DNA from: a virus
IMG/VR virus record: IMGVR_UViG_3300042372_000620
Location: 1 to 59,723 of that record
DNA: 59,723 bases
Strand: one strand, 5' to 3'
Translations under genes and position numbers: made by a program
The notes under the pieces: model-generated
What the model was told of the DNA's origin: nothing
Database searches by the model: none
The model's input: the letters and a program-made list of their open reading frames with translations, nothing else
Part shown: positions 7,589 through 51,600 of the stretch, piece after piece
Layout: the number at the start of each line of letters is the position of its first letter
Position numbering within the stretch: the stretch's first letter is position 1

Positions 7589-7614
7589 TTTGTGACCCGC
7601 CAATAAAATTGTTT

Positions 7615-32853: not shown

Positions 32854-34641
32854 TTATGACTTTACTGCTATTAAACACTTATCTGAAATAAACTGAGTCT
32901 TGTAGTCTGCAACATCAGAAAAAACTTCTTTAATTTCTTCTTCTGGATGAACAATTATTAAAACATCTCCACTTCTTAAAAACGATGCCTGTTTTTCATA
33001 AGCAAAATCTTTTAAATAATCTGGAATATTTTTGTAATTGATTAATAAAACTCTTTCACCATTTTCTGGAGCTTCTATGTTTTCATCTAAGTCTGCAATA
33101 ATAAAATTAGCATAACCAAATACATCAAGTTCTTTTTTAAGGGTTTCTTTATCTTGATTTTGAAAGTCGTAAACTCTTACGATACCAAGACCTTTTTGGC
33201 ATAATGCTAATGTGGTTTGAAGACATATGGAAGAAATATCTAAACACCATTTGCCTTTTGCTGCCCAAACAATTTCTCTAATGTCACAAAAATCTAAACC
33301 ACCAGATACATTATCTAAATGATTTAAATTTGGGTTTACCCTATATGGAATTTCTTTTTTTGTTAAAACAAATGGCATTACATTATTTATTCTTGCTAAT
33401 TCCGATAATTTTAAATTTTGATTTTTGTTTAATATCAATCTTGCAAAATCTTTACTTATTATTAATGACTTGCTTTGATCTATGTCTACATTATCTGCAA
33501 TTCTATATGAGAAAAATTCATTTTTTCTTTTAAAAGATTTTTTTTCAATTTCATTTAATGAAGCTATTTTTAAAGTTTTTTGTTTAATAACAATCCATTC
33601 ATCGATTTTTTCTATAGTTTTTAAATCAATTACTTCACCAGATTTTACAATTAAACAATAATCCTCATCTCTAGAAACAAAGTCTGTCATAGCTGAAATA
33701 AAAGACTTGTCTTCTAAGGTTATTTTAGGGTACGCCCAATTAAAATTTTTATAGGTTTCACTATTTTCATCGTCTAATATATAAGCAACTTTACTTGTTT
33801 TATAGTCTTTGGCAGGAGAAATTGACATTGGTGTTCCTAAAGCTTTTGAAAACTCATTAAGTATCCCACCTATTTGATTTGTGTTTAAAGACTTCTTAAA
33901 AAACTCCAAAACCTCCTGATAATTCATACCCAACTCAGACCATCCAATTAAATAATTTATAATTCTGTCTTTAAGATCTAATGGGTATGGAACACCTTTT
34001 GGTCTTGCAAATCTATGAATCCATTTTAACCAAGATAAGCATATGGCTTTTCCACCATTTTGCCTTGTTTTTTCTTGAATGTATCCTTCTTCACCACCAA
34101 AACCACGGAAGTTGGAATTAAATTTTGGCCAAGCATCTTTCCTCATGCAAAATAATCCTAGACCCTGCATAGGTATTTCAAACTTTTCTTGAGTTAAATA
34201 CCTAGAATCTGTTTCCCAAGTTCCATACATTTGTCCACGCCACTCAGGTTTAAAGTGAGTCGATATATTTTTTTGATCATCGTAGAGTAATGGGCCTTGA
34301 ATTAAATCCTTAGTATCAATGTTTGCATAAATATATTCTTTAAGTTTTTTAACAGCATCCTTAACTAATAAAACATGGCAGTCAATACACATTACAAATT
34401 TGCCAGTTGCTACTTCAAACACATGATTTCTTGAGGCAGATGTTCCAATTTTATCTGGCCTATGAAAGTATTTTGCACCAAGAGCATTGCAAGTATTTGC
34501 TGTGTCTTTACAAGATTCTTTTTTGGTGTCAACCACAACCAACTCTACATCTTCTAAGTCCTGATATGCTTTTAATGCTTCTAAAGTGAAATAAACCCCA
34601 TCAAAATCATCGTATGTAGCCATGCCAATTGTAAGAATCAT
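32854..34641 (-). CDS. GT-A glycosyltransferase with D-x-H motif, mucin-type GalNAc-transferase-like
   Basis: A 595-residue protein, ATG 34641 after AGGAGG. Residues 1-260 form a GT-A fold: MILTIGMATYDDFDG (strand 1 and nucleotide-binding start), then GTSASRNHVFEVATGKF and the metal site D87-C88-H89. A later block has F-G-G-E-E-G-Y near 185, then QNGGKAICLSWLKWIHRF. The D-x-H metal motif and the G-G-E...G-G...H layout are those of GT27 polypeptide GalNAc-transferases, while ordinary GT2 enzymes usually have D-x-D. The C-terminal about 330 residues are not recognised; the last about 150 look Rossmann-like. It sits among head-tail connector genes, so its substrate may be a virion protein. Host surface modification is an alternative. 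Confidence 0.75.
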   Translation of the reverse strand: MILTIGMATYDDFDGVYFTLEALKAYQDLEDVELVVVDTKKESCKDTANTCNALGAKYFHRPDKIGTSASRNHVFEVATGKFVMCIDCHVLLVKDAVKKLKEYIYANIDTKDLIQGPLLYDDQKNISTHFKPEWRGQMYGTWETDSRYLTQEKFEIPMQGLGLFCMRKDAWPKFNSNFRGFGGEEGYIQEKTRQNGGKAICLSWLKWIHRFARPKGVPYPLDLKDRIINYLIGWSELGMNYQEVLEFFKKSLNTNQIGGILNEFSKALGTPMSISPAKDYKTSKVAYILDDENSETYKNFNWAYPKITLEDKSFISAMTDFVSRDEDYCLIVKSGEVIDLKTIEKIDEWIVIKQKTLKIASLNEIEKKSFKRKNEFFSYRIADNVDIDQSKSLIISKDFARLILNKNQNLKLSELARINNVMPFVLTKKEIPYRVNPNLNHLDNVSGGLDFCDIREIVWAAKGKWCLDISSICLQTTLALCQKGLGIVRVYDFQNQDKETLKKELDVFGYANFIIADLDENIEAPENGERVLLINYKNIPDYLKDFAYEKQASFLRSGDVLIIVHPEEEIKEVFSDVADYKTQFISDKCLIAVKS

Positions 34642-34663
34642 ATTTCCTCCTTCTATTTCCTAA

Positions 34664-34702
34664 AACAAAAAGGCTGCTGTACCTTTATATGATACAACAG
34701 CC
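34664..34702 (-). terminator. Terminator upstream of the glycosyltransferase gene
   Basis: The arms at 34672-34681 and 34693-34702 (GGCTGCTGTA and TACAACAGCC) pair with one mismatch around an 11-base loop. On the minus strand it lies about 25 bases past the stop of the 152-residue gene and is followed by TTTTTGTTTT. It separates the adaptor/decoration pair from the glycosyltransferase. The glycosyltransferase may therefore be made at a lower level by readthrough. Confidence 0.8.
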
Positions 34703-34726
34703 AATATAGATGATCAACACTTTTTA

Positions 34727-35185
34727 TTAAGCTTCTTTTGCAATAAATCGAGCACCACTTGTGGCACAAATAATGTTAACAGTGGAGGCTGGAATAAAAG
34801 CACTATCAAAGACTAAATTGCCACTTGCTGGTATTTTAAAAGAAGAAGTAGTGTTTGCTGGTATTCCAAAATCCACATACATATCGTTGCCTGACTCATT
34901 TTGAAAATATAAATAATGCCTGTCATCGTTAGGAGAAAATATTTGCTGACTTGTATTAGAAGCAAGTATGGTTGAAGAACCATCTGAAAAAACTGCTGGC
35001 CTTGAAATATCAACGATAGGAATAGCAAAACTTCTTTCTATCGCTGGATAATCCAATGTATCTGATGTCGTAGCTCTTCCTTCGCTAACATAATTGATTA
35101 TTTGGCCACTTGGATTTCCTTCAGTGGGATTAATTGTTGAATAACCATTTACTATGCCAGCACCAATAATATGAATTGTTCCCAT
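34727..35185 (-). CDS. Small beta-rich virion protein (head/neck decoration-like)
   Basis: A 152-residue protein. The frame runs up to 35263, but ATG 35185 (MGTIHIIGAGIVNGYST) follows GAGGG and limits overlap with the upstream gene. The C-terminal half, with YLYFQNESGNDMYVDFGIPA then SGNLVFDS and a hydrophobic end, has the pattern of a small phage beta domain (R/Y-x-Y-L-x-x-Q-N-x-S...V-x-F-G) often found on capsid-associated or fibre-base proteins. It is followed at once by a terminator, suggesting high expression. A decoration or neck role is inferred from that and from its place after the adaptor. Confidence 0.6.
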   Translation of the reverse strand: MGTIHIIGAGIVNGYSTINPTEGNPSGQIINYVSEGRATTSDTLDYPAIERSFAIPIVDISRPAVFSDGSSTILASNTSQQIFSPNDDRHYLYFQNESGNDMYVDFGIPANTTSSFKIPASGNLVFDSAFIPASTVNIICATSGARFIAKEA

Positions 35186-35198
35186 GAAAAAACCCTCG

Positions 35199-35729
35199 TT
35201 ATTGAATAAAGTTTCTACCATCTCTACTGTAAGGATAGTACGCCATATCTCTAAAGCCAGCAAAAACTCTGAATGGAGTCATAATGGCTGCACCAGCAAT
35301 TGTTCCATTTCTGTTTGCCTGATATTCTAGCTTAGTGTCATCATATACTGAACACCAGCCCTTTTCAAGCAATCTAAGTCTACCATCCATTGAGCCACGA
35401 AGATCAATAGAAGAACTACCATCTCTAATAGCAATTCCTTGACCAACAGATTTTCTAGTTTCTCCACGATCTATTAAACACGCTGCTTTTATACAAACTA
35501 AATTTATAAAATTTTCATCTCTGGTTGATTCTCTATCTACTGGACTTGGTTCAATAGTTAAAGCTTGAATATCAACCCTAAACTTACTAGGAAAATTTAA
35601 TTCATTTGTAACTAATTGAGCAGCTACTGCCAAAACTTGCGTAAGTCTTTTGTCATTATATGTTTGTGGCGATGAAAGATCGTCTATCAAAACCCTTAAC
35701 AGTGTTATGAATTCTGCTTGCCAGTACAT
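35199..35729 (-). CDS. Probable head-tail adaptor (connector) protein
   Basis: A 176-residue protein, ATG 35729 (MYWQAEFITLLRVLIDDL) after GAGGTGATT. The sequence order is typical of gp6/gp15-type adaptor proteins that bind the portal: an N-terminal helix ending in I-D-D-L-x-x-P, T-Y-x-D-x-R-L followed by a hydrophobic helix (VLAVAAQLVTNEL), then a strand and D-E-N-F-I-N-L-V-C-I-K-A-A. The C-terminus is Arg/Tyr-rich and may contact neighbours. It heads a transcription unit: a recurrent GGTGTAT motif lies 37 bases upstream of the start in a 48-base gap. It is unusual that the whole fibre module lies between this gene and the capsid gene. Confidence 0.7.
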   Translation of the reverse strand: MYWQAEFITLLRVLIDDLSSPQTYNDKRLTQVLAVAAQLVTNELNFPSKFRVDIQALTIEPSPVDRESTRDENFINLVCIKAACLIDRGETRKSVGQGIAIRDGSSSIDLRGSMDGRLRLLEKGWCSVYDDTKLEYQANRNGTIAGAAIMTPFRVFAGFRDMAYYPYSRDGRNFIQ

Positions 35730-35761
35730 AATCACCTCGTTATTTAGTAATAATTACAACT

Positions 35762-35772
35762 AATAATACACC
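35762..35772 (-). promoter_or_regulatory. Recurrent GGTGTAT motif upstream of the adaptor gene
   Basis: Minus-strand GGTGTATTATT in a true intergenic gap, 37 bases before ATG 35729. It is preceded by AATAC and followed by AT-rich sequence. A good example of the repeated signal outside any coding sequence. Confidence 0.55.
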
Positions 35773-35777
35773 GTATT

Positions 35778-36422
35778 CTAATCAGTAAATGGTGGAACGA
35801 TTATAATATTGCCAACTACTAGGGTTATTATGTGACCATTTGACAAAACTGACCTAAATTCATAAGACCATCTACCAGCACCGATCTGCTGAAGTTCTTC
35901 ATTGCTTAACTCAACCCTTAACGATGTTGCATTGAGCAATTCTGCTGCCTTAGTAAATGTTGGCATTGAATCAATTATAAAACTGGTGGAAGAATCAGTT
36001 AGGTCTGGCCAATTTACAGAAGTTATATCTATAGATCTAGACTCTTCTACTAAATAATCATCAGTTAATCTTAATTCTATAGGATCTGCTGGATTAATTG
36101 GTATTGGATTTGTTAGCGTAGGAACCCCAGTTCCAGTAGAACTACACCTTGTGCTAATTTTAACATCTATGTTTTCATATTCTTCTGGATTAATAGCTAA
36201 AGCACCAAGAAATTCAGTCGCACAATAAAATTTGATAGCACCTCTAAAAGATGTTGGTATTGTTGGAGTAAACAAAAAATAACCGTTGGTCAAATTTACA
36301 AATCCAGTTGTATATGGAGTATTGTAATTTGTTCCATCTCCGTTTATTAATTGTGCAGATAAAGTTGTGCAATTTTCATAATTTTTACCAAAAGATAAGC
36401 TTATACCCATTTCAAATGCCAT
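35778..36422 (-). CDS. Structural protein sharing its C-terminal domain with the mucin-like adhesin
   Basis: A 214-residue protein, ATG 36422 (MAFEMGISLSF) after GGAGATTAAC, starting one base after the stop of the adhesin gene. The first about 110 residues are beta-rich. The last about 100 closely resemble the last about 100 of the upstream 1090-residue protein: E-L-R-x-T-D-D-Y near 118, then I-G-A-G-R-W-S-Y-E-x-R, then G-H-I-[IV]-T-L, and I-I-[IT]-P-x-F-x-D at the very end. This points to a shared anchoring or assembly domain. Probably a surface or fibre-base protein. The copy here lacks the Thr tracts and Cys modules. Confidence 0.75.
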   Translation of the reverse strand: MAFEMGISLSFGKNYENCTTLSAQLINGDGTNYNTPYTTGFVNLTNGYFLFTPTIPTSFRGAIKFYCATEFLGALAINPEEYENIDVKISTRCSSTGTGVPTLTNPIPINPADPIELRLTDDYLVEESRSIDITSVNWPDLTDSSTSFIIDSMPTFTKAAELLNATSLRVELSNEELQQIGAGRWSYEFRSVLSNGHIITLVVGNIIIVPPFTD

Positions 36423-36423
36423 G

Positions 36424-39400
36424 TTAATCTCCAAAAGCAGGAGTTATAATTAAATTACCAATAGCCAATGTCACAATATGTCCACTTAGAAAAACTGCTC
36501 TTATTTCGTAAGACCATCTTCCAGCACCAATAGCAGATAATTCAAGATGGTCAAGTTCTAATCTAATTGTGGTTGCATTTATAGCTAAACAAGTTTTTAC
36601 AAAATTTATTTTGCCATCTACAAAAAATAAAATTGTTATGTTATTTAATACTGGATAATCATTAGATATAAAATCTATAGCTCTTCCATCTACATCGTAG
36701 TAATCATCAGTAGCCCTTAATTCTAAGGTTTCTCCAGAATTATATTTTATTGAATTTATATTTGGGGCTAATGTTGTAGTAGTTGTAGTAACTGGTGCAG
36801 AAGTAGTCGTTGTTGGACTTACCGTTGTAGTAGTAGTGGTTGGACTTGTAGTTGTTGTGGTGGTGGTAGTTGGTGCTATTGTCGTTGTGGTTGGACTAGC
36901 GGTTGTAGTCGTTGTAGTCGTTGTGGTTGGACTTGCGGTTGTGCTTGTAGTCGTAGTCGTTGGACTTGCAGTCGTTGTAGTAGTTGGTGCAGCAGTTGTG
37001 GTAGTGGTTGTAGTAGTATTTGGATCTGTAGTTGTTGTAGTTCCTTCAATAACATCAATCGTAAGTGCAAAAGATGAACCATCATTCATGTAAAAATTTA
37101 TTACATATGTTCCAACTGGAGGCGATATGAATTTATAATAAGCAAAATTATCAGATACACATGGATATTCTTGTTCATTTAAAAGATAGAATTTACTTCC
37201 GATTGTACCAGTAGTAACAAACTCCATTAAGGCATATTGATTATTTACCTTTTCATATATGCCATATGTATTTTCTGGCGAAGGCAATGGATACCAAGGC
37301 CACTGAGTAACAGTACTAAAATTTTCACTATTTATATTTACTTGATATATATCCCTAACCCTAAATTTAAGCTCTAATGTTTCTGAAATACCTATAGTAA
37401 AGGATGTTTTAGGTGGAATTTCATCTTGATCAAAGTTGTTTGGATCTACCCAATGAGCTAAAGAATAATCGCATTGTGGATTTGATGTTGTACTAGTTGT
37501 AGTTGTAGTTGTAGTTGTGGTAGTCGTTGTAGTTGTGGTAGTTGTGGTAGTTGTTGAAGCAGTAACGCAAACACCATTTACGCAATCTGGATAAGACTCT
37601 GGAGGACAATTATAACCACATGATCCACAATTATATTTGTCGCTTAGTATATCTATACATATTCCATTGCAACATGCTTCTCCTGCACCACAAACTATTC
37701 CACAATCACCACAATTATTTGTGTCATCTTTAAAATCTATTATTGTTCCATTGCAACATTTTTGAAAACTAGTAACAAGAGATGGATCTGGAAGACATTG
37801 ACCTTGGCAACAAACACTTGGTGAAGCACAATAACTGCCACATGAACCACAGTTAAGTGGATCTGACTCTAAATCTGCACAATAATTTGTAAAAACATCT
37901 CCGTTTTGCGTACAACAATCTTGACCGCTTGGGCAAGCATTTTCACATGAACCACAAGTTGATCCAGATCTACCAGACACTAGTTGTCCATCACAACAAA
38001 TCATTTGATCAACGCCAAATATGTTATAACAATTTCCACCACAACAATCCCAACCTGGTTCAAAACCACAAAAAACCCCATAACATGGATCAGGATTTGT
38101 GGTTGTAGTGGTTGTAGTTGTAGTAGTCGTTGTAGTCGTTGGACTTGCGGTTGTTGTTGTAGTAGTCGGTGCTGAAGTAGTCGTTGTCGTTGGACTAGCG
38201 GTTGTAGTCGTTGTCGTTGGACTAGCGGTTGTAGTCGTTGTAGTCGGTGCTGAAGTAGTCGTAGTAGTCGTTGGACTATCGGTTGTAGTCGTTGTAGTCG
38301 GTGCTGAAGTAGTCGTAGTAGTCGTAGTAGTCGTTGGACTATCGGTTGTAGTCGTTGTAGTCGGTGCTGAAGTAGTCGTAGTAGTCGTAGTAGTCGTTGG
38401 ACTATCGGTTGTAGTCGTTGTAGTCGGTGCTGAAGTAGTCGTAGTAGTCGTTGGACTATCGGTTGTTGTTGTAGTAGTCGTTGTCGTTGGACTAGCGGTT
38501 GTAGTCGTTGTGGTTGGTGCTGAAGTCGTTGTAGTTGGTTCTGAAGTCGTTGTTACAAAAGAATAACAAGGAGATTCAAAAAACTCATAAAACTCAGTTC
38601 CATCATCAGTAGGAGAATCACAAATACATGATGGGTTACAATCACTAAGTTGATACCAATAGCCTCCTGGCCCCAACCATTCCCAAGTACAACCACCAAA
38701 ACATGTTGTTGTTTCAGTACACACACCGTCTTTACATCTATATGGTGCAACACACACATTCCCACATGATCCACAATTATTATCATCAGACGATCCAGGG
38801 TTTCCTAGATTCCAATAGTCAAGAGAAATTGATCCATAAATACCATCATTATTAAGATCGCAACAGACCGTACCTTCTGGCACTGAATCGCCACAAGATG
38901 CACAGTTTTCATTTGTTCCTAATGTAATACAATTTCCATAACAACAAACTTCCCCTTCTGCACAAATTATTCCACAACCACCACAATTATTATTGTTAGA
39001 AAGCAAATCTGTGCATGATAATCCACCACCAGTAAGATTAGGACAACAATCTTCAAAAGGTGCTTCTAAACATGCATCTCCACACCCGCTACAATTATAT
39101 CGATCTTTAGGTCTACAATATCCAGAACAATTCCATTCTCCAGGAGCACAAGGATTTGAAGTAGTTGTAGTTGTAGTAGTGGTATTAGTAGTAGTGGGTT
39201 GTGGTGTGGTTGGATCTGGAGGTTCTGATGTAAGTGGTGTTCCAGTGGTAGAAGAAGTACCAGTGGTAGAAGAAGTACCAGTGGTAGAAGAAGTACCAGT
39301 GGTAGAAGAAGTACTAGTGGTAGAAGAAGTACTAGTTGTTGGTTCTTGAGTTGTAGTTGGGTATATACAAGGATAAGATACGACTTGATTTTCCGTTCCG

Positions 39401-39696
39401 TTAAAACTAGGAAATCCTTCATATGAACAAAGACATGTGCCATCTTGTGGGCACGAAGATGTCTTTCTCCATGATGTAAAGTAGCCTGGTTCTCCGTAGC
39501 CCAAATTCCAGGTCCAACTACAAGAAGATGATGTGCATGTACTAAAATCTCCATAAACCTTTAATTCTTCATTTGTTTCCCAATTTAAACTTCCATCTTT
39601 TTCTATTGCCGTATAAGAACAATCACCAAAAAGAAAAATCTCACCTTCATAAGATGGATTAATGCCCAAACTTAGTGGATCAATACAATTAGGCAT
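36424..39696 (-). CDS. Mucin-like, Cys-module virion adhesin (1090 aa)
   Basis: Low-complexity Thr tracts alternate with folded Cys modules. Order: an N-terminal Cys/Trp domain (1-115), S-T-T-G/T-S-S-T-T repeats (about 116-165), a Thr run, Cys modules (about 180-375) of the form C-x-x-L-x(3-5)-N-C-G-x-C-G-x-x-C, a long Thr tract with SAP and DSP/ASP spacers (about 385-535), more Cys modules (535-710), a Thr run, a beta domain (about 735-885), another Thr/SP tract, and the C-terminal domain ending I-T-P-A-F-G-D that is shared with the next gene. The N-C-G-x-C-G modules resemble those in myxobacterial and Stig1-like surface proteins. No signal peptide is visible, so it is more likely virion-borne than secreted. 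Thr tracts of TTTTSAPTTTT type are classical O-glycosylation sites in mucins. Confidence 0.8.
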   Translation of the reverse strand: MPNCIDPLSLGINPSYEGEIFLFGDCSYTAIEKDGSLNWETNEELKVYGDFSTCTSSSCSWTWNLGYGEPGYFTSWRKTSSCPQDGTCLCSYEGFPSFNGTENQVVSYPCIYPTTTQEPTTSTSSTTSTSSTTGTSSTTGTSSTTGTSSTTGTPLTSEPPDPTTPQPTTTNTTTTTTTTSNPCAPGEWNCSGYCRPKDRYNCSGCGDACLEAPFEDCCPNLTGGGLSCTDLLSNNNNCGGCGIICAEGEVCCYGNCITLGTNENCASCGDSVPEGTVCCDLNNDGIYGSISLDYWNLGNPGSSDDNNCGSCGNVCVAPYRCKDGVCTETTTCFGGCTWEWLGPGGYWYQLSDCNPSCICDSPTDDGTEFYEFFESPCYSFVTTTSEPTTTTSAPTTTTTTASPTTTTTTTTTDSPTTTTTTSAPTTTTTTDSPTTTTTTTTTSAPTTTTTTDSPTTTTTTTTTSAPTTTTTTDSPTTTTTTSAPTTTTTTASPTTTTTTASPTTTTTSAPTTTTTTASPTTTTTTTTTTTTTTNPDPCYGVFCGFEPGWDCCGGNCYNIFGVDQMICCDGQLVSGRSGSTCGSCENACPSGQDCCTQNGDVFTNYCADLESDPLNCGSCGSYCASPSVCCQGQCLPDPSLVTSFQKCCNGTIIDFKDDTNNCGDCGIVCGAGEACCNGICIDILSDKYNCGSCGYNCPPESYPDCVNGVCVTASTTTTTTTTTTTTTTTTTTTTSTTSNPQCDYSLAHWVDPNNFDQDEIPPKTSFTIGISETLELKFRVRDIYQVNINSENFSTVTQWPWYPLPSPENTYGIYEKVNNQYALMEFVTTGTIGSKFYLLNEQEYPCVSDNFAYYKFISPPVGTYVINFYMNDGSSFALTIDVIEGTTTTTDPNTTTTTTTTAAPTTTTTASPTTTTTSTTASPTTTTTTTTTASPTTTTIAPTTTTTTTTSPTTTTTTVSPTTTTSAPVTTTTTTLAPNINSIKYNSGETLELRATDDYYDVDGRAIDFISNDYPVLNNITILFFVDGKINFVKTCLAINATTIRLELDHLELSAIGAGRWSYEIRAVFLSGHIVTLAIGNLIITPAFGD
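36770..37035. repeat. Thr-tract low-complexity repeat, adhesin C-terminal side
   Basis: Imperfect repeats of GTNGTN (plus strand), encoding Thr runs broken by ASP, SAP or APV. Thr codons are mixed (ACT, ACA, ACG, ACC), which limits slippage compared with a single repeated codon. Confidence 0.85.
38098..38545. repeat. Thr-tract tandem repeat with 63-bp units
   Basis: Encodes long Thr runs with alternating SAP and DSP/ASP spacers. Within it, about 38274-38465, a unit of 63 bp (21 residues: DSP, nine Thr, SAP, six Thr) recurs nearly perfectly, about three times. Likely to vary in copy number by recombination. Confidence 0.85.
39238..39345. repeat. 18-bp tandem repeat encoding S-T-T-G-T-S units
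   Basis: About six copies of an 18-bp unit (GTACCAGTGGTAGAAGAA on the + strand, with CCAGT/CTAGT variants) encode the six-residue unit STTGTS or STTSTS of the mucin-like adhesin. It is nearly perfect at the DNA level, indicating recent expansion. Confidence 0.85.
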
Positions 39697-40733: not shown

Positions 40734-41417
40734 CTATGCTTTTATGATGAAATTAACAACTATCGCTGGTGGAATAATCCCGAATGCAGTTCCACCTCCA
40801 GTACTAGAATTAGTAACTGTATGATTATGATTGGAACTTTCAACACCAGTAGTAGTACCATGAATATGACCTTGATGAGCACCTTGCGTATTAGGAGTTC
40901 CGTTAGCACTTCTGTTAGCACCATCCCTTAAACCATATGATCCAGATGAACCAACATTTCTTCCCCAACCATGCGTGTGGTCAACAGATACTGTACCACT
41001 TGTTCCTGAGTGTGTATGATTTGCAGTTTGTGTTCCTACTGTTGTAGCATGAGTATGAGAAGCCATGTTAGCTTCAGATAAAGTAACTGTTTCTGCTCCT
41101 ACATTTGAACCCAAAGTTCTAGTAGTTAAAGAAGTTCCTGTTCCTGCACAAATTGGAATTCTACCTCTCATATCAGGCAAAGTAAAAGTATCGTTAGAAT
41201 TTCCAGAACCATAAGTAGTTCCAATTACTTTAAATAAATCGCCATAAGTCTTTCTGCTAATAGCACTTCCATTGCATAAAAGCCATCCGTTAGGAACTAC
41301 AGATCCAGCAAAAAATCTTATAACACCAATAGGAGTAAAAGATGATTGCAAGCCTTGAAACGAACTTCCTTTTGGGGAGTTGGTTGGTATCATGCTGTAA
41401 GAAAAAGATCCAGCCAA
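40734..41417 (-). CDS. Tail-collar domain protein, copy 1
   Basis: A 227-residue protein with a TTG start at 41417, preceded by TAGGTGAGCAA. Residues about 30-85 are a phage tail collar domain (PF07484): I-R-F-F-A-G-S-V-V-P-N-G-W-L-L-C-N-G, then F-T-L-P-D-M-R-G-R-I-P-I. The second half is a His/Thr/Gly-rich H-T-H repeat region (S-H-T-H-A-T-T, N-H-T-H-S-G-T and similar) like those that form a trimeric, metal-binding needle. It ends with I-I-P-P-A-I-V-V-N-F-I-I-K-A. It is the third to be transcribed of three tandem copies, with 8-base spacers. Probably a short trimeric fibre tip. Confidence 0.9.
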   Translation of the reverse strand: MAGSFSYSMIPTNSPKGSSFQGLQSSFTPIGVIRFFAGSVVPNGWLLCNGSAISRKTYGDLFKVIGTTYGSGNSNDTFTLPDMRGRIPICAGTGTSLTTRTLGSNVGAETVTLSEANMASHTHATTVGTQTANHTHSGTSGTVSVDHTHGWGRNVGSSGSYGLRDGANRSANGTPNTQGAHQGHIHGTTTGVESSNHNHTVTNSSTGGGTAFGIIPPAIVVNFIIKA

Positions 41418-41425
41418 TTGCTCAC

Positions 41426-42109
41426 CTATATTTTAATAATGAAATTAACAACTATTGACGGAGGCATAATTCCAAAAGCTGTTCCACTTCCAGTATTTGA
41501 GTTTGTTACTGAGTGTGTGTGATTAGCACTTTCTGTTCCTGTTGTAGTAGCATGAGTATGATTTTGCTGAATGCCACCAGTACTAGGTTGACCAGAACTA
41601 CTAGCTGTTCCTGAGTCCATTAATCCGTAAGAGCCAGATGTACCCGCAGTATGACTAAAGTTGTGTACATGATTTGCACTTTCACCACCACTTGTTCCTG
41701 TGTGTGTATGCGTAACACTTTCTGTTCCAACCGTAGTTGCATGTGTGTGAGAAGGCAAGTTAGTTTCGGCCAATGTAGCTGTTTCTGCACCAAAAGTTGC
41801 TGCTAATGTCCTTGTGGTTAAACTAGAACCAGAACCAACACCAATAGGTAGTCTTCCTCTCATGTCTGGTAAAGTAAATGTGCTATTAGAATTACCAACG
41901 CCATAAGTAGTGCCTATGACTTTAAACAAATCACTAAAAGCTACCCTACTAACAATACTTCCATCACAAATTAACCATCCGATTGGAGCAACAGAACCAG
42001 CAAACATTTCTATTATACCAGTCGGTATGATTGGTGTTTTTATAGGCTCAAATGAACTTCCCTTTGGAGAGTTAGTAGGCATCGAATTATAAGAAAAAGA
42101 TCCAGCCAA
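41426..42109 (-). CDS. Tail-collar domain protein, copy 2
   Basis: A 227-residue paralogue of copy 1, also starting with TTG (42109) after TAGGTGAAAAA. It has the same collar domain (E-M-F-A-G-S-V-A-P-I-G-W-L-I-C-D-G...F-T-L-P-D-M-R-G-R-L-P-I) and the same His-rich H-T-H spike, but with different variable residues in the spike (H-N-F-S-H-T-A-G-T-S-G-S-Y). The C-terminus is nearly identical (G-I-M-P-P-S-I-V-V-N-F-I-I-K-I). The spacing to both neighbours is 8 bases. The three copies may form homotrimers or a mixed heterotrimer. Confidence 0.9.
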   Translation of the reverse strand: MAGSFSYNSMPTNSPKGSSFEPIKTPIIPTGIIEMFAGSVAPIGWLICDGSIVSRVAFSDLFKVIGTTYGVGNSNSTFTLPDMRGRLPIGVGSGSSLTTRTLAATFGAETATLAETNLPSHTHATTVGTESVTHTHTGTSGGESANHVHNFSHTAGTSGSYGLMDSGTASSSGQPSTGGIQQNHTHATTTGTESANHTHSVTNSNTGSGTAFGIMPPSIVVNFIIKI

Positions 42110-42117
42110 TTTTTCAC

Positions 42118-42804
42118 CTATATTTTAATAATAAAATTAACGGCTATTGATGGTGGCATAATACCAAATGGTGTTCCACTACCTGTGTTTGAATTAGTAA
42201 CACTATGTGTATGTGTAGCACTTTGAGTTCCAAATGTGGTTGAATGAGTGTGACCAACAGAATTCCCACCTGTTTGTGGTGTTCCCGAACTACTAGCAGT
42301 AAGCGAATCTATAATCCCAACTTGTGAACCAGTAGTTCCTATAGGTTTGTTATAACTATGTGTATGATTTACGCTTTGATCACCGCTTGTTCCTGTGTGA
42401 GTATGATTAGCACTTTGTGTTCCAACTGTAGCGGTATGGGTATGTGGTGGAAGATTTGTTTGTGCTAATGTTACTGTCTCTGCACCCAAATTCGCCCCTA
42501 AAGTTCTAGTGGTAAGCGATGTGCCTGTTCCAGCACCGATAGGTAATCGCCCTCTCATATCTGGTAATGTAAATGTAGTATTAGAATTACCAGCCCCATA
42601 TGTAGTTCCTATTACTTTAAATAAGTCGTCATAAGTCCTTCTACTAACAGTACTTCCGTCACATATTAGCCAGCCATTTGGAGCAGTAGAACCAGCAAAC
42701 ATTTGAATGATACCAGATGATATAAAAGTGTCTTGAACTGCTTGAAACGCAGAACCCTTTGGCGAATTACTTGGTATCATGCCATAGTTAAACGCTCCAG
42801 CCAT
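42118..42804 (-). CDS. Tail-collar domain protein, copy 3
   Basis: A 228-residue paralogue. ATG 42804 overlaps the preceding stop by one base (TAATG), and the frame extension to 42828 is ignored. It has collar phrases I-Q-M-F-A-G-S-T-A-P-N-G-W-L-I-C-D-G and F-T-L-P-D-M-R-G-R-L-P-I-G-A, and a His-rich H-T-H region with its own variable insert (YNKPIGTTGSQVG). It is first of the tandem set to be transcribed and, unlike the other two, uses ATG. Collar domains of this type also end the 2769-residue collagen-like protein, so all four may share an assembly partner. Confidence 0.9.
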   Translation of the reverse strand: MAGAFNYGMIPSNSPKGSAFQAVQDTFISSGIIQMFAGSTAPNGWLICDGSTVSRRTYDDLFKVIGTTYGAGNSNTTFTLPDMRGRLPIGAGTGTSLTTRTLGANLGAETVTLAQTNLPPHTHTATVGTQSANHTHTGTSGDQSVNHTHSYNKPIGTTGSQVGIIDSLTASSSGTPQTGGNSVGHTHSTTFGTQSATHTHSVTNSNTGSGTPFGIMPPSIAVNFIIKI

Positions 42805-43250
42805 TAATAGCTTCCCCCCATTACACAAACTTGCAATGCGGTAGTACTAGCAGTAGTAGTAACACTAACAGAGGCAAAAAGCTTAAATGTAGATGGTAAA
42901 ACAAGAGGGTTGGCAAAAGTCAAAGTAGTTGTAAATCCAGCTACAGTAGTGGATGGAGTTACAGCAGTCACAAGTATTTCTGTAAACAAATAAGCTGTAG
43001 TTCCATCCCATACCCATATGCCTACGATATTGCCAGCAGTCGCAGAAGTAAAAGAGGTGGAGCAAGCATTAACTTGAATTGAATCAATTCTTAATCCATT
43101 AGTAGAAGTTGGTACAACCTCTACAATATTTGCTGCTGCAAGACTAGCAGTTGCTGTTGGGCCTCTAGTGGTACAAGCTGTTTGTGCTGCAAGAGTTTTT
43201 GCAACAAAGTATGGTGCTTGAGCAAAGATAGGCGTTGATGTGACTGGCAT
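42804..43250 (-). CDS. Small Ala/Thr/Ser-rich structural protein
   Basis: A 148-residue protein, ATG 43250, sharing one base with the stop of the collagen-like gene (TAATG), with GGAGG just upstream inside that gene. Very rich in Ala, Thr, Val and Ser with four Cys. Alternating strands (for example IVGIWVWDGTTAYLFTEILV) suggest a compact beta sandwich of the kind found as a fibre knob or attachment ring. No family was recognised. Tight coupling to both the collagen-like fibre and the first collar gene suggests they work as one unit, with this protein perhaps capping or joining the fibre. Confidence 0.7.
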   Translation of the reverse strand: MPVTSTPIFAQAPYFVAKTLAAQTACTTRGPTATASLAAANIVEVVPTSTNGLRIDSIQVNACSTSFTSATAGNIVGIWVWDGTTAYLFTEILVTAVTPSTTVAGFTTTLTFANPLVLPSTFKLFASVSVTTTASTTALQVCVMGGSY

Positions 43251-45634
43251 TATAAACCTCCAAAGTTGTTAGCTAAGAAAACATTGCTTGCTGCTGATGG
43301 GGCGGTTGACCAAGACAATACGCCAGCACCACTAGTAATTATTACTCCACCATTAGCACCATCTGTAGTTGGCAAAGTCCATATTACATTACTTGCTATA
43401 TTATCTCCAGCTTTAAATCCTACATAGTTTGTTCCATTAGCTGCTAGTTCATAGAACCTTAATTCGCTTGTATTGCCAGCAGAAGTATTAAAAGGAGTTA
43501 GATTTAAAGACCTTGCTAAATATAGTGAGTAGTTACTATCAACATAAAGTAGCTTAGTTTCACCAAAGTTTTGTATTCTGAATAGATCTCCTGACTGAGA
43601 AGAAGAGCCTCGTATAACTATACCAACGCCAGCATCGGTTCCTGTTAGAACACGAAGTGCATAGGCGTTAGTTAAAGTTAGATTAGTTCCAGCAATAGGA
43701 GCAGAATCAATCTGTATTGTTGCAGCATTTGTAAATGTACTCGCACTTACCGCACTATAAGTTGGGGCAGATATTTTTATTGCTCTTTGAGAACTTAAAA
43801 AACCAGCGGAAAATTGAACGGTTCTATTAAGATTTAGAAAAACATCGCTATATTCTGTAGCTGCTGTCAAAGCAGTATGATTAGGAGCAGTAACTGTAAC
43901 TGAAGAAGGCTGTGTTCCTGTGCCAACAGTAGGACTTATAGCAAGCACTGGAGTAGTTACTGTTGTGCCATTAAAAGTAAAGCTTGAAGATCCAGCAGCA
44001 GCATTGCTTCCGTCTTTGTAGACAACCTGATTTGCTGATCCAGCAACTGGGCCAGTTAAACCTTGTAGTCCTTGGTTTCCTTGAGAACCTTGATCTCCTT
44101 GATTCCCTTGACCTTGATCACCTTGCGAGCCTTGGTAACCTTGATCTCCCTGCCATCCCTGATCTCCCTGATGACCTTGCCAACCTTGATGCCCTTGATC
44201 GCCCTGTTCACCCTGCCAACCTTGATTGCCCTGATGACCTTGGTCGCCCTGTTCTCCTTGGTATCCCTGATAACCTTGCCAGCCATACATACCTTGATCA
44301 CCTTGTGACCCTTGCCATCCTTGCCAGCCATACATACCTTGATCGCCTTGATTTCCTTGATAACCCTGCCATCCATAGTTGCCTTGATCACCTTGATTTC
44401 CTTGTAATCCTTGTTCACCTTGCCATCCATAATTTCCTTGATCACCTTGATTTCCTTGATCACCCTGATTACCATAATTACCTTGATTTCCTTGTTCGCC
44501 TTGTGAACCTTGTTCTCCTTGATTTCCTTGGTTTCCTGTTCCAGTTACACCTTGAAAACCTTGTCTTCCTTGAAAACCTTGGTTACCTTGATTTCCAATA
44601 ATGCCTTGTAACCCCTGATTTCCTTGGAAACCTTGTCTTCCTTGATATCCTTGTTCTCCTTGAAAGCCTTGATTGCCAACAATTCCTTGAAAACCTTGTC
44701 TTCCTTGAAAACCTTGAAATCCTTGAGATCCTTGAGATCCTTGAACTCCTTGTTCTCCTTGAAATCCTTGATTACCTTGATTGCCTTGATAACCTTGATA
44801 GCCCCTAAAGCCTTGATATCCTTGAGATCCTTGAGATCCTTGATATCCTTGAGATCCTTGAAAGCCTTGAAAGCCTTGATTTCCAGTTCCAGTTAAACCT
44901 TGAAAACCTTGTCTACCTTGAGAACCTTGATTGCCTTGATTGCCTGTTAAACCTTGAAAACCCTGTCTGCCTTGAAATCCTTGATTCCCTATTGATCCTT
45001 GAAAACCTTGTCTGCCTTGATTTCCAGTACTTCCAGATAAACCTTGATCGCCTTGATTTCCTGTTGCTCCAACAACTCCTTGATTGCCTTGAAATCCTTG
45101 TGAACCTACATCTCCTTGATCTCCTTGGTTTCCTTGATTTCCTTGATCTCCTTGACTTCCCTGATAACCTTGATTGCCTTGATTGCCTTGATATCCTTGG
45201 TCGCCCTGATTGCCTTGATCTCCATAAAATCCTTGATTACCCTGCGATCCTTGATCTCCTTGTTCTCCTTGGTTACCTTGCGACCCTTGATCACCTTGAT
45301 CGCCTTGATCGCCTTGATCCCCTTGACTTCCTTGATATCCTTGAAAACCTTGAAAACCAGTTAAACCTATTTCTCCTTGAAAACCTTGATTGCCCTGATC
45401 GCCCTGTTGTCCTTGTTCACCTTGAAATCCTTGATCACCTTGATTTCCTTGAAATCCTTGTTCCCCAACAATTCCTTGAAAACCTTGATCACCTTGATTA
45501 CCCTGCAATCCTTGCAATCCTTGTGGTCCAGCAACACCTAGTCCAACCCAACCAGTATCGTTGTAAACCCATGTCTTACCATCGAATGTATAAGTGTCAT
45601 TATTATCGGGATTAATAGGAAAATTTATTGGCAT
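43250..45634 (-). CDS. Collagen-like fibre protein (794 aa)
   Basis: A short N-terminal domain (about 1-35, with a Y-T-F-D-G-K-T-W-V-Y-N-D-T-G-W motif common at phage fibre bases) leads into about 490 residues of near-perfect Gly-x-Gln triplet repeats (G-F-Q-G-N-Q-G-D-Q type). The repeats lack Pro almost entirely; Gln fills the third position, and Phe, Asn, Asp, Tyr, Trp, Leu and Ser the second. The C-terminal about 260 residues form a beta-rich domain (S-G-S-A-N-Q-V-V-Y-K-D-G-like start), ending in LANNFGGL, probably the trimerising head. It resembles the 2769-residue fibre upstream but has only one folded C-terminal domain. Likely a trimeric triple-helical fibre on the virion. Confidence 0.85.
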   Translation of the reverse strand: MPINFPINPDNNDTYTFDGKTWVYNDTGWVGLGVAGPQGLQGLQGNQGDQGFQGIVGEQGFQGNQGDQGFQGEQGQQGDQGNQGFQGEIGLTGFQGFQGYQGSQGDQGDQGDQGDQGSQGNQGEQGDQGSQGNQGFYGDQGNQGDQGYQGNQGNQGYQGSQGDQGNQGNQGDQGDVGSQGFQGNQGVVGATGNQGDQGLSGSTGNQGRQGFQGSIGNQGFQGRQGFQGLTGNQGNQGSQGRQGFQGLTGTGNQGFQGFQGSQGYQGSQGSQGYQGFRGYQGYQGNQGNQGFQGEQGVQGSQGSQGFQGFQGRQGFQGIVGNQGFQGEQGYQGRQGFQGNQGLQGIIGNQGNQGFQGRQGFQGVTGTGNQGNQGEQGSQGEQGNQGNYGNQGDQGNQGDQGNYGWQGEQGLQGNQGDQGNYGWQGYQGNQGDQGMYGWQGWQGSQGDQGMYGWQGYQGYQGEQGDQGHQGNQGWQGEQGDQGHQGWQGHQGDQGWQGDQGYQGSQGDQGQGNQGDQGSQGNQGLQGLTGPVAGSANQVVYKDGSNAAAGSSSFTFNGTTVTTPVLAISPTVGTGTQPSSVTVTAPNHTALTAATEYSDVFLNLNRTVQFSAGFLSSQRAIKISAPTYSAVSASTFTNAATIQIDSAPIAGTNLTLTNAYALRVLTGTDAGVGIVIRGSSSQSGDLFRIQNFGETKLLYVDSNYSLYLARSLNLTPFNTSAGNTSELRFYELAANGTNYVGFKAGDNIASNVIWTLPTTDGANGGVIITSGAGVLSWSTAPSAASNVFLANNFGGL
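44050..45530. repeat. Collagen-like 9-bp periodic repeat region, smaller fibre
   Basis: Runs of CCTTG-spaced units with 9-base period (plus strand CCTTGATCACCTTGATTT and variants). The many near-identical stretches could recombine with each other and with the larger fibre gene. Confidence 0.9.
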
Positions 45635-45646
45635 ATTGCATATATC

Positions 45647-48600
45647 CTAAGTTTTTATTATGTAGTTTAATGCTATGCTTGGTTGCATGTTATCATGCGA
45701 ATAACCACCACCAGTATTGTTGGCATTGCTTATATATGGCGTAAATGTATGGGTATGATCAATGCTAGGACTATCTCCAACCGTACAGTATTGTCCATAC
45801 TCTGAACCACCAGACACTATAAGTCTTCCTTGATAACCACCACCAAGATTAGCAAATCCATAAGCACCTCTTCCTATTTGACCACCTCCAGCAACCCAAA
45901 CCGCAGAGTGTGAATGCACTTGATTAGCAGACATACCACCAGTGCTACCACCATATACAGCATTAGGATGAGTATGTGCTGGTATTTGAGATGAATTTAA
46001 AGTGACTGTTTCTGTACCTATTTTAACAGCCAATCCCCTATTCGTAAGACCAACACCAGTTCCAACACCAATTATTGTTCTGCCTCTTAAGTCTGGTACT
46101 CCAAATGTGCTACCATTTCCTGCACTATATGTTGTTCCAATTACAGTAAATAATGCAGCATAAGTAGTTCTAGAATAAGTATTTGTACCATCACATAATA
46201 ACCATCCAGCAGGAGCAGTAGTACCAGCAAAAGCAATTATTGATCCTGTTGGATTCGAGCTAACTGCTGGCGAGCTAGTCCAAGTAGAGCCATTGCTTGT
46301 AAGAACATTCCCACTTGTTCCAGCAGAAGTAAGCCCAGTTCCACCAGAACCAACAGCAAGAGTAGTCGATAGACCACCAGCAGTAATTGAACTTTGATTT
46401 ATCCAAGATGGAGCAGATGAACCATTTGATTTTAAAACTTGATCACTAGTTCCTGCTGCTAAAATTGCTGTTGAACTTGTTCCAGATTGATATGGAATAC
46501 CACCTATAGAACCACCAGAAATATTTATTGCTGTTGTAGCTACACCAGTAGTATTTTGATTAAGCGTAGGTATATCGGCAGGAACTAAAGATCTAAAAGA
46601 TGGAACACCAGTAGAACCATTTGGGGAAGCAAGTACAGTATTTCCAGATTGATTTACAAATGTAACTGTGAAAGTTCCAGCATTTATAACTGGCGATCCA
46701 GAAACATTGAATATGGCTGGTGCAGATAATGATACAGAAGTCACAGAACCACTAGATTGAAAACCTTGGTTTCCTTGATTGCCTTGATTGCCTTGAAAAC
46801 CTTGATTTCCATTATTTCCAGCCGATCCCTGTGATCCAGTACCACCAGATAAACCCTGATTACCTTGGTAGCCTTGATTACCAAGTATTCCTTGAAATCC
46901 TTGTCTGCCTTGAAAACCTTGATCACCTTGTAAGCCTTGATTTCCTTGAGATCCTATCGTTCCAACAGTTCCTTGAAATCCTTGATTACCTTGATTTCCT
47001 TGAAAACCTTGAGATCCAGTTATACCCTGTCTTCCTTGATTGCCTTGGTTTCCTTGAGGTCCAACAGAACCTTGAATACCTTGATTTCCTTGGTTACCTT
47101 GAGATCCAATAGATCCTTGAACTCCTTGACTTCCTTGACTTCCTTGACTTCCTAAAATACCTTGAAATCCTTGTGGTCCTCTTACAAGACTCACATTCTG
47201 CCAATATACTGGAGATGAACCAGTATAAATCAAACCATCGCCTATAGATGCTGTGCCACCAGTTGGATTAGGACATGCCTGAGTAGCTGTTCCTTGATTT
47301 ACATTTGTGACAATCCACATATCACCTAAAGATGCACCAGCAGTTTCATTGTTAAATATGTTTTCCCATGTTTCTGAACCTTGAATGGTTACGCCAGAAC
47401 CAGATGTTCCTTGATAGCCTTGATAGCCTTGATAGCCTTGATTTCCTTGATCACCTTGCTCTCCTTGGTATCCTTGATTTCCTTGAAAACCTTGGTTTCC
47501 TTGAAAACCTTGATCGCCTTGTTCTCCTTGATCACCTTGATTTCCTTGATCTCCTTGAAATCCTTGATACCCTCTAATTCCTTGATAACCTTGTTCTCCT
47601 TGATTACCTTGTTCGCCTTGTTCTCCTTGTTCTCCTTGATTTCCTTGAAATCCTTGATCACCTTGCAGTCCTTGATTACCTTGTTCGCCTTGAAAACCTT
47701 GATAACCTTGATCGCCTTGATATCCTTGATCCCCTTGATCTCCTTGATAACCTTGATCGCCTTGATAGCCAATTTCTCCTTGATAGCCCTGATCGCCTTG
47801 ATAACCTTGTTCTCCCTGATCTCCTTGAACCCCTTGAGATCCTTGAAGACCCAAATCTCCTTGGTATCCTTGATAACCTTGATTTCCTTGTTCGCCTTGG
47901 TTCCCTTGTTCACCTTGGTATCCTTGTTCTCCTTGGTATCCTTGGAAACCTTGATTTCCTTGAAAACCTTGTTCTCCTTGATTTCCTTGATCTCCTTGAT
48001 TACCCTTTTGAACCAATAAAGTCCATCCGTTGTTTGGAGGTGTCGCTCCCAAAGACCAACTTCCAACATTGGTCAATTGATACAATGATCCTTGATAAGT
48101 AGCAGCATCATTTAAAACATAGGTAGTTAAAGCAGACCATGTGCCAGTATAAGTATAAGGCACATCTCCCTGATAGCCTTGGTATCCTTGATAACCTTGA
48201 TTTCCTTGTTCTCCCTGATAGCCCTGATTTCCTTGAAATCCTTGTTGTCCTTGGTATCCTTGTTCACCCTGATAACCTTGATCTCCCTGCGATCCTATGC
48301 CACCCTGATCTCCCTGTTCTCCTTGAAAACCTTGCAACCCTTGTTCGCCCTGTTCTCCTTGAAAACCTTGAAAACCAGCACCTTGAAAACCTTGTTCTCC
48401 TTGATTTCCTTGTACGCCTTGTGTGCCTTGAGTTCCTTGACTTCCTTGGAAACCAGCACCTTGAAATCCTTGTTCGCCTTTTGCACCTACAAATTGAACC
48501 CACTGTGAACTATCTGTATCTACAACATATATGTAAAAAATACCAGTTGATGTATCTATCCAAAGATCGCCAGCAGTTGGCGATAATGGAGCAGTTGGAC

Positions 48601-51600
48601 TTGCAGTATAGACACCCCTATTTATGCCTTGATAACCCTGTTGCCCCTGTTCTCCCTGATACCCTTGATATCCCTGATAGCCAGTATCACCCTTATCACC
48701 AGTTCTTGCAAAGGTGAGCAATACTTCATCATCATTAGAAAACGAGCCACTTCCAGATAAATAAGAAATTGTAACATCAAAGAAGCTAGGCTCTTGTTCT
48801 GAGGAATTGCTTATAGTGTAAAGTGCAAATACTGTAGAGTCATTTTTCTTAGATAATTTGAAATGACCTTTCATAGTGCTTGTTGAAGCAGAGATTGTGG
48901 CTAAGAATAGAGAAAGATCTATGTTTGCATTATTTGGATTATCATCAATTATAACATGCGTAGCTGATGCAAGAGAAGCATTGTTAAATCTTATGTAGTT
49001 GTCGCCTGGATCATTGATAAAATAATTATTTGTGTCTATTTTATATTCAACTGTTACACCACCAAAGCTACCAGTTGCTCCCTGATATCCTTGGTCGCCT
49101 TGATTTCCATAATTGCCTTGATCGCCTTGTAATCCCTGATCACCTTGTGATCCCTGATCACCTTGATTTCCATGTTCTCCTTGGAATCCTTGATCACCCT
49201 GTGAACCTTGTTCACCCTGCGAACCTTGATTTCCCTGATCTCCTTGAAAACCTTGAAATCCCTGTTCTCCTTGATTTCCTTGGAATCCTTGCTCACCTTG
49301 AAAACCTTGATCTCCTTGATTCCCTTGAAATCCTTGGTCACCCTGATTGCCTTGATGGCCTTGTTGACCTTGTTCCCCTTGAAATCCTTGATCACCTTGA
49401 TCACCTTGATTTCCTTGAAAACCCTGTTCTCCTTGAAATCCTTGTTCGCCCTGTTCTCCTTGATGACCTTGGAAACCCTGTTCGCCCTGATGACCTTGTA
49501 TACCTTGATTTCCTTGATGACCTTGAAATCCTTGTTCGCCTAAAATCCCTTGATAACCTTGATATCCTTGAACGCCCTGATGACCTTGAATGCCTTGGTG
49601 ACCTTGTAATCCTTGATTACCTTGATATCCTTGATCGCCCTTAAGACCTTGTAAACCTTGATGACCTTGTAAACCTTGATTACCTTGTGACCCCTGCAAT
49701 CCCTGCAACCCCTGATTACCTTGTGGACCAACTTGTGTATACATCACTTGCATTACAGTTGCAATTACTGATGGTATAGCTGGTGCTGGAGATGTAGATG
49801 TGTTCCTTAAAAGTTGAATATTAGTATTATCAGTACTCCACATTATTTCTATATATTCATTAGCAGATGTGGTAGTAAAAAGATAATCCCAAGCAGCAAC
49901 ATTAAATGGGTTATTTGAAGTAACATTTACTTTTGTGGCAGAATCAGCAACATCTACGCCATTTAATTTAAACCAAATCTGTACAGTTTGTCCATTACCA
50001 CCACCGCCAGAATAATATAATTGAGCAGAAAACTGTAGATCATAAGTTCCAGGATGAGCAACTTTAATCTGAGAGTTTGATTGTATAGAAACGCCATTAG
50101 CATCTGGCGTATTGTTAAATGTCATCGCATAAGCTGTAGCTGTTGAAGCAGCAGTCTGAGTTAAATCAGAATAGAAAGATCCGTAATAACCTAAAGCACC
50201 ACCAGCACCAGTAACGCCCTGATAACCCTGTGGTCCAATACCACCAACTTGTGTAAAGGTTATATCATCAGTTCCAATACGAATACTTCCATCTACATTA
50301 GAACCAACACTATTTTGCAAAGAAGAAGTATTATTATTTACTGTTCCAGCTACTATAAATAGATAATCGCCATACTCAACTTGAGCAGCGATATGATTAT
50401 CAAAGTCTGTTGCTCTGATGAGTTTGTATAAAGCAGATGGTCCACCAGTGGCATCAACTGTATAAATACCATTCTGTCTTGCATCAGATTGATTTTTAAC
50501 TAATATTCTATCACCAACAGCTACAGCAACACTATCAACAGACAAAGCCCCATTTGTAGTGGCTTGAATATAAGCACCAACGCCAGTACCATTAGATGCA
50601 TCTGCACTTCCAGCAGTGTAAGTTGGGGAATTATTAAGGGCGGTAGTTGTTGCTAAACGAGCAGATGTGTGAGCGTTTTCCGTGTTCTTTGGTCCTTGAA
50701 CACCTTGGTAGCCTTGATCCCCTTGATAGCCTTGCTCGCCTTGATAACCCTGATAACCTTGGTCACCCTGTGATCCCTGATCTCCTTGATTTCCTTGGAA
50801 TCCTTGATCGCCTTGATTACCTTGTTCACCTTGAAATCCTTGTTCACCTTGAAACCCTTGTTCTCCTTGAAAACCTTGATAACCCTGATCTCCTTGAATA
50901 CCTTGTTCACCTTGATAACCTTGGAATCCTTGATGGCCTTGAATCCCTTGTTCTCCCTGTTCTCCTTGAAAACCTTGATGGCCCTGATTACCTTGGAAAC
51001 CTTGTTCACCTTGAAATCCTTGATCGCCCTGTGATCCTTGTAAACCTTGAAATCCTTGGTTGCCTTGTTCGCCTTGAAAACCTTGTAATCCTTGATCTCC
51101 CTGATTACCTTGTTCACCTTGAAAACCTTGTTCTCCTTGAAACCCTTGATAGCCCTGATCGCCTTGTAATCCCTGTTCACCTTGGAATCCTTGATCACCT
51201 TGATTGCCTTGGAAACCCTGATCTCCTTGGAAACCTTGGTCACCCTGATTGCCTTGTAAACCTTGTTGACCTTGGTCACCTTTCTGAGCAATCAATGTCC
51301 AAAAAGTTCCTTCTGAGGGCGTATCCCCAAGATTGCCACCATTAGAATGAATGCGATACCAAGTTTGCCCTAAATAAGTTGCTATATCACCTATAGCATA
51401 CGATGCACCGCCACTGTAAGCACCTGTGAAATTCCATAATGCATCTGATCCTTGATTACCTTGAGAACCTTGTTCACCCTGCCAACCTTGATAACCTTGA
51501 TTTCCTTGAAACCCTTGTTCACCTTGAAAGCCTTGATTGCCTTGATTGCCTTGTTCACCTTGTAATCCCTGATTTCCTTGTGATCCTTGATCACCTTGGA

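Follow-up and report, generated by a model that had tools for sequence, protein, structure and literature searches.

By predicted fold, the closest described relatives of the phage glycosyltransferase (GT) reported here are the polypeptide N-acetylgalactosaminyltransferases (ppGalNAc-transferases) of family GT27, represented by GALNT1, GALNT2, and TgGalNAc-T3. In GALNT1, the residues Asp209, His211, and His344 are important, and GT27 enzymes typically carry a lectin domain (PMC4202792). The phage enzyme, a 595-amino-acid (aa) protein, is encoded by IMG/VR record IMGVR_UViG_3300042372_000620, positions 1–59,723, a 59.7-kb stretch of DNA from an uncultivated virus to which we refer, at its full length, as the window. 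Like GT27 enzymes, it has a predicted GT-A fold matching over the whole domain and a DxH motif followed by a later His in the same order. Unlike them, it shows 13–16% identity in structural alignments, has no match to the family by sequence profile, and carries no ricin-type lectin domain. We propose that it is a GT27-fold, metal-dependent peptide O-glycosyltransferase acting on tail adhesins, with a neighboring 1090-aa protein rich in threonine tracts as its likely acceptor, and we give this reading a probability of about 0.62. The phage enzyme would thus probably sugar-coat proteins with long Thr tracts.

Other described systems resemble this locus in part. Mycobacteriophages are reported to bear glycans on their own proteins, at the C-termini of capsid and tail-tube subunits (PMC12619734, citing Freeman et al. 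2023). In the window, the putative site of modification is instead the Thr/Ser/Pro tract of an adhesin. Fusions between an RRE domain and a glycosyltransferase were noted with RRE-Finder, with no acceptor stated in the excerpts available (PMC7470986; PMC12710340, PF00535). Bacterial relatives of the phage enzyme combine PqqD/RRE and PF00535 domains and may belong to the set outlined in these excerpts. They differ from it in lying next to Tat-like proteins whose tails are Thr-rich. An RRE is absent from the window protein. By sequence profile, the nearest enzymes are TarP and chondroitin polymerase, two GT2 members of the same GT-A superfold whose acceptors are glycans. A survey of low-complexity regions across prokaryotes and phages reports that those of phages are most enriched in alanine, glycine, and proline, not threonine (PMC6821194). 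Among the literature matches listed (titles and beginnings of abstracts, with subscription papers and preprints outside this scope), none connects Thr tracts with a glycosyltransferase that is RRE-linked or encoded by a phage.

The long ORFs of the window all lie on the minus strand, as do the window features described below between positions 2789 and 53956. The GT gene occupies 32854..34641. Pfam PF00535 (Glycos_transf_2) matches residues 5–107 of its product (E value 3.7e-11, 43.7 bits against a gathering score of 23.3), which places the protein in this superfamily. The original prediction had drawn attention to a set of GT27-like motifs, all of which we found as described: the metal motif D87-C88-H89 (34375..34383), G182-G-E-E185 (34087..34098), a second Gly pair at G196-G197, and H209 (34015..34017), the His of an HRFxRP motif. 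We built a family alignment in which each of the 50 rows represents one cluster at 90% identity; 36 rows are viral and 14 bacterial, and the window is among them. D87, H89, E184, E185, H209, R210, and F211 are invariant in this alignment. D87 and H89 are predicted metal ligands and H209 is a candidate third ligand, probably equivalent to His344 of GALNT1. The enzyme also fits the GALNT2 pattern, GGE-x9-Q-x-GG with a spacing of 25 residues from E to H.

Residues 1–270 (33832..34641) form the predicted catalytic domain. The AlphaFold2 model computed from the 50-row domain alignment has a pLDDT of 94.8 and a pTM of 0.92; a first model based on a low-diversity alignment of 11 rows was poor (pLDDT 46.9) and was discarded. 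In a Foldseek search, all 50 chains listed are ppGalNAc-transferases (best E value 2.9e-14). After re-alignment by VIA, GT27 enzymes occupy ranks 1–29 of the 50 entries listed, with Z scores from 24.7 to 20.0 and a best alignment of 254 residues at an rmsd of 2.7. They are followed by 6p61 (Z 19.0 over 179 residues) and by chondroitin polymerase (Z 18.7), and TarP is absent among these 50 entries. This search against GT27 and GT2 had been set beforehand as the refuting test, and it returned GT27, not a polysaccharide GT2, as the best structural match. The least confident block of the model, residues 211–220 (mean pLDDT 75), lies just after H209, at the position of the mobile loop of GT27 enzymes. 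Together, fold and motifs argue for a GT27 type of catalysis, and the predicted fold places the enzyme in a GT27-fold family. Since its kinship by sequence is with GT2 and it has no lectin domain, it is not a proven member of GT27 itself. The initial assignment to GT27 rather than GT2 therefore holds for the fold and the motif layout, but not for the sequence profile or the domain composition.

The putative acceptor is a Cys-rich, Stig1-like protein of 1090 aa encoded at 36424..39696 (PF04885, E value 3.2e-20). It also resembles MXAN_6577, with a score under the cut-off of that model. Its main tract, made of TTTTSAP/TTTTTTASP-type repeats, spans residues 387–533 (38098..38538), and further tracts are found at residues 712–738 (37483..37563) and 894–958 (36823..37017). 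The protein contains 273 Thr and six runs of at least nine Thr, the longest of 20 residues. When the residues of the protein were shuffled 500 times, a single shuffle contained such a run; the tracts are far beyond chance. They do not correspond to a pure trinucleotide DNA repeat, as all four Thr codons are used (ACT 73, ACA 52, ACG 32, ACC 25). The presence of these tracts is borne out; their attribution to two proteins is not. Both strings quoted in its support, TTTTSAPTTTTTT (six occurrences) and STTGTS (three occurrences), lie within the 1090-aa protein. The only other minus-strand ORF of at least 60 aa with a TTTTT string is a 1617-aa ORF at 2789–7642, outside the region 32854–39696 covered by the claim. 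The 218-aa protein encoded at 35778..36434 shares a C-terminal domain of 110 residues with the 1090-aa protein (46% identity), and its homologue in L009 has a (PT)n tract. This common domain is probably the virion-attachment part. Two small genes kept in relatives, at 34727..35263 (weak match to PHROG 33692) and 35199..35735, also separate the tract gene from the GT gene.

The catalytic domain alone, mostly of about 275–365 aa, is widespread, with 284 viral relatives, of which the best 80 were analyzed, and 14 bacterial ones. Among the loci kept, full-length matches to the 595-aa protein are restricted to one viral clade, L002–L016, several members of which are cut by contig ends. No match was obtained by tblastn with the 595-aa protein at an E value of 1e-5 in 50,697 phage records. 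Counted with the seed genome, the enzyme was present in 1/385 genomes at 1e-40 and in 3/400, 1/396, and 2/395 at 1e-50. In another clade (L028–L031, L077, and relatives L400–L479), the enzyme gene is part of a replication-type module, next to genes that by eye resemble those of primases, kinases, and nucleases. A radical-SAM-like gene, also recognized by eye, follows it in L077.

The linkage between enzyme and tract was analyzed by searching ORFs of at least 60 aa, in any frame and within 2.5 kb of the enzyme, for 20-residue windows in which eight or more residues are Thr and 15 or more are Ser, Thr, or Pro (S/T/P). Such a tract ORF was found in 13 of the 36 viral clusters and in 7 of the 14 bacterial ones. 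The viral count falls to 12 without the cluster of L025, which is doubtful: in its examined member L027, the tract ORF overlaps the GT start. None of 120 random viral loci has such a tract (0/1780 windows in the 89 sufficiently long loci). At the enzyme loci, 267/3058 viral and 66/792 bacterial windows away from the GT carry one. An earlier count, which relied on greedy gene calling within 3 kb and gave 12 viral and two bacterial clusters, was replaced because it missed Thr-tail ORFs in GC-rich bacteria.

In L023, L032, L051, L062, and L078, the tract gene ends 10–18 bp before the start of the enzyme gene. In the clade of the window, a poly-Thr tract is found in the window itself, L002–L004, L006–L008, and L010, and a (PT)n/(SP)n tract beside the same enzyme in L009, L011, and L013–L016; L005 has hardly any upstream sequence. 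The replacement of poly-Thr by (PT)n/(SP)n in sister phages indicates that composition is kept and sequence is not. This swap and the adjacency argue for the tract as the substrate. On a tree of the enzymes, the tract label requires at least 14 changes, compared with a mean of 19.3–19.4 after shuffling, and 4 of 500 shuffles were as low. Tract linkage is thus clustered, yet was gained or lost many times. For this tree, L083 and L085 were labeled as tract-bearing under a weaker rule, and L142, L143, L145, and L212 were added. These four were selected for their tracts, a bias for which they were left out of the rates.

Several proteins at these loci share short C-terminal endings. A CxxxxCNKLG(Y/F) tag follows the Thr tract directly in L040, L041, L051, L062–L064, L068, L142, L145, and L212. 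It is present on more than one protein in L041, L062, and L064, and the GT gene starts about 11–14 bp past the last tagged protein. This tag could serve for recognition or anchoring. Near a divergent copy of the enzyme, the minus-strand ORFs L143:2088–2705 and L143:3053–4108 have in common a KSxxxNxxGLP ending after their Thr tracts.

Bacterial copies of the enzyme are mostly one domain within larger proteins. Pfam identifies a PqqD domain fused to the GT in L083, L093, L094, and L397, and within the Thr-tract neighbor in L095 (just below the cut-off in L092); PqqD is encoded by a separate gene in L084. It was not found by Pfam in the 595-aa window protein. A GT25 domain follows the enzyme domain in L084, L085, L090, L092, and L095, and is below threshold in L093. 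L085 also has a fused sulfotransferase, and a Walker-A-containing region was seen, by eye only, in L082, L084, L085, L087, and L395. The PqqD fusions provide independent support for a peptide substrate in bacteria. At L084 (8188–8514, minus strand) and at L082, L085, and L395, a PqqD gene or domain occurs with a P-loop region fused to the enzyme and with a nucleotidyltransferase-like neighbor, the last two recognized by eye. These clusters look like an uncharacterized peptide-modification system.

The neighbors of the bacterial enzymes are often short proteins that combine an Arg-rich stretch at the N-terminus with a W[TSV][KS]P motif and a Thr/Ser/Pro-rich tail. They were found in L082 (three copies), L083, L084, L085, L088, L395, and L397. 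Other Thr-tract neighbors are present in L086, L092, L094, and L095, and weaker S/T/P-rich ones in L087 and L091. Four extra bacterial copies, L395–L398, came from genome sampling or are second copies. In the stretches examined, the tract protein lies about 60 bp from the enzyme in L395, 180 bp in L396, and 3.8 kb in L397. L396, from a Chloroflexota, encodes a stand-alone enzyme of 302 aa preceded by a Cys-rich Thr-tract protein of 1114 aa, a plan much like that of the window. Two Tat-like, Cys-rich Thr-tract proteins (L396:3171–6515 and L396:9855–11873) flank this enzyme. The L396 genome was drawn from the phylum of an Anaerolineae match, and its protein plan is like that of the phage window.

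Several observations weigh against the proposed reading. The comparison of 12/36 with 0/120 is significant (Fisher, p = 4e-9), but the random loci are not matched for tail modules. No tract was found within 2.5 kb of the enzyme in 23 of the 36 viral clusters. L012 retains the enzyme and encodes, at the position of the tract gene, a tractless protein of 117 aa; Thr tracts are present elsewhere on its contig. Among bacteria, there is no tract in L089 and L090, which are short contigs, nor in L093, and none within 9 kb in L398. Counts over whole contigs speak both ways. We searched for runs of nine Thr in 29 enzyme-bearing virus records, not dereplicated, which had been picked for having no adjacent tract, the exceptions being L078, L027, which is doubtful, and L035, which has a tract of its own 5 kb away. 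Ten of the 29 have such a run (10/15 of those of at least 40 kb), compared with none of 40 random records (0/14 of at least 40 kb), and each of the ten matches encodes Thr within a long ORF. The reversed control pattern was also matched in 4/29 enzyme-bearing versus 0/40 random records, indicating that the enzyme-bearing contigs are repeat-rich in general. The expected co-occurrence takes the form of strong adjacency in bacteria and in several clades of phages, but it is not universal: the enzyme tends to accompany tracts in tail-module and bacterial settings, and not in every clade.

The occurrence of the enzyme without Thr tracts would fit a peptide O-glycosyltransferase whose main acceptor is another virion component, such as collagen-like fibers or, as in mycobacteriophages, tail or capsid subunits. 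Two long collagen-like proteins (794 and 2769 aa), whose repeats can be read in the sequence, are encoded in the same window (43250..53956) as alternative acceptors, and glycans on the capsid and tail tube of Mycobacterium phages are reported (PMC12619734). However, only 4/36 viral clusters have a Gly-x-y ORF at up to 10 kb from the GT, compared with 12–13/36 for tract ORFs at up to 2.5 kb, and tract ORFs also occur beside bacterial copies. We consider this alternative unlikely, if less so than the two that follow.

Sequence comparison also brings evidence unfavorable to a peptide acceptor. The significant sequence-profile matches in the PDB are of GT2 type (TarP, 5.2e-7; chondroitin synthase, 1.6e-5), with no GT27 chain among matches up to an E value of 10, and the Pfam scan of the 595-aa protein returned PF00535 only, with no ricin-type lectin domain. 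A single-sequence search of solved structures gave nothing significant (best E value 0.12). In the reverse direction, DNA runs encoding 12 Thr were found at no fewer than 120 viral loci, and 120 of these were taken. The enzyme is present in the piece examined in six of them, one of which (L210) shares its contig with L004 and another (L168) is a partial match at the edge of the piece, versus 0/120 random loci. When 39 of these Thr-tract records were searched whole, five gave an enzyme match (three strong and two weak) versus 0/14 random ones. Overall, Thr tracts greatly outnumber the enzyme. A GT2-like enzyme could instead modify a surface polysaccharide of the host or a lipid-linked glycan, the tracts being flexible spacers and the linkage a result of joint residence in the tail module. 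Similarity to GT2 polysaccharide and teichoic-acid enzymes and the many phage contigs with S/T/P tracts but no enzyme speak for it. However, GT27 is the best fold match with a clear gap in Z score, and several bacterial relatives have PqqD domains and Thr-tailed neighbors, so that we regard this possibility as somewhat less likely again.

The replication-module clade was sampled through 80 of 323 relatives of a gene neighboring the enzyme in L077, among which the 27 records of at least 40 kb were searched. The enzyme is present in 23 of these and a 9-Thr run in six of the 23. Reading in frame covered the three of the six that belong also to the 29-record set. Among the four records lacking the enzyme, one has a 9-Thr match, which is an ACC repeat. 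As most records of this clade have no 9-Thr run, the acceptor may differ there. Transfer to nucleic acid (a hypermodified base), at least in this clade, would agree with the primase-, kinase-, and nuclease-like genes seen by eye near the enzyme of L029, L030, and L077 and with the 17/23 GT-bearing records without a 9-Thr run, but it is very improbable, since the clade of the window has the enzyme among structural genes and PqqD-fused bacterial relatives are hard to square with a DNA acceptor.

In the reading we favor, peptide O-glycosylation of a tract-bearing adhesin, a GT-A catalytic core with the predicted fold and motifs of ppGalNAc-transferases would, with the help of a metal, most likely move a sugar from a nucleotide-sugar onto Ser/Thr hydroxyls of a protein. 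The acceptor would most likely be the S/T/P tract region of the adhesin-like 1090-aa protein, encoded a few small genes upstream. The outcome may be a stiff, mucin-like stalk, coated with sugar, that would link the Cys-rich domains to the common C-terminal domain. The original prediction of an O-glycosylation system is thus partly supported, by the predicted GT27 fold, tract adjacency, and PqqD fusions, but strict membership of GT27 and a universal association with tracts are not.

The remainder of the window is in keeping with a virion glycosylation system, since phage structural genes are present and the enzyme gene lies near the acceptor candidate. These structural genes comprise a weak major-head-protein match, the collagen-like fibers, and a tail-collar gene. 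Three similar tail-collar-type fiber genes (40734..42828) mark a tail-fiber module upstream of the tract gene. The first (40734–41417), the only one scanned, matches PF07484 (E value 3.4e-24) and PHROG tail proteins. The 794-aa collagen-like protein matches PF01391 (E value 2.4e-78); it and the 2769-aa protein consist chiefly of Gly-x-Gln-type triplets, with non-repeat sequence between or after the repeats. A very large ORF (12132–27086) encodes 4984 aa, and the gene at its position in L002 and L009 starts, by eye, like a tail tape-measure protein. The ORF at 58207–59688, assumed to be the portal, has no family match in Pfam and PHROG scans. A second GT-A-like gene had been proposed near it (57492–58250, 252 aa), a proposal that found no backing: there is no match in Pfam, PHROG, or NCBIfam, and the best PDB sequence match has an E value of 0.1. 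The C-terminal half of the enzyme (residues 271–595, 32857..33831) is poorly modeled and, among the loci kept, matched only in the window's own clade. Residues 272–440 were considered as a degenerate GT25 domain, as in bacterial relatives, and this was rejected, as hhalign found no similarity (probability 0.2%).

More broadly, we would give even odds to the view that mucin-type O-glycosylation has a prokaryotic and viral branch formed by this GT27-fold family. Its members would be guided by PqqD in bacteria to Tat-exported proteins with Thr-rich tails, and would act in phages on tail adhesins with S/T/P tracts, these acceptor tracts evolving by composition and not by sequence, as animal mucins do. 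If the proposed reading is true, the adjacency of poly-Thr tracts to the enzyme would be explained, and the bacterial RRE-glycosyltransferase clusters that are unassigned would gain a suggested acceptor. With a peptide glycosyltransferase resembling GT27 enzymes placed in phages and bacteria, the origin of mucin-type glycosylation would become testable. Some phage adhesins would have mucin-like, sugar-coated stalks built by a dedicated enzyme, with consequences for host recognition by the phage, its stability, and its recognition by antibodies.

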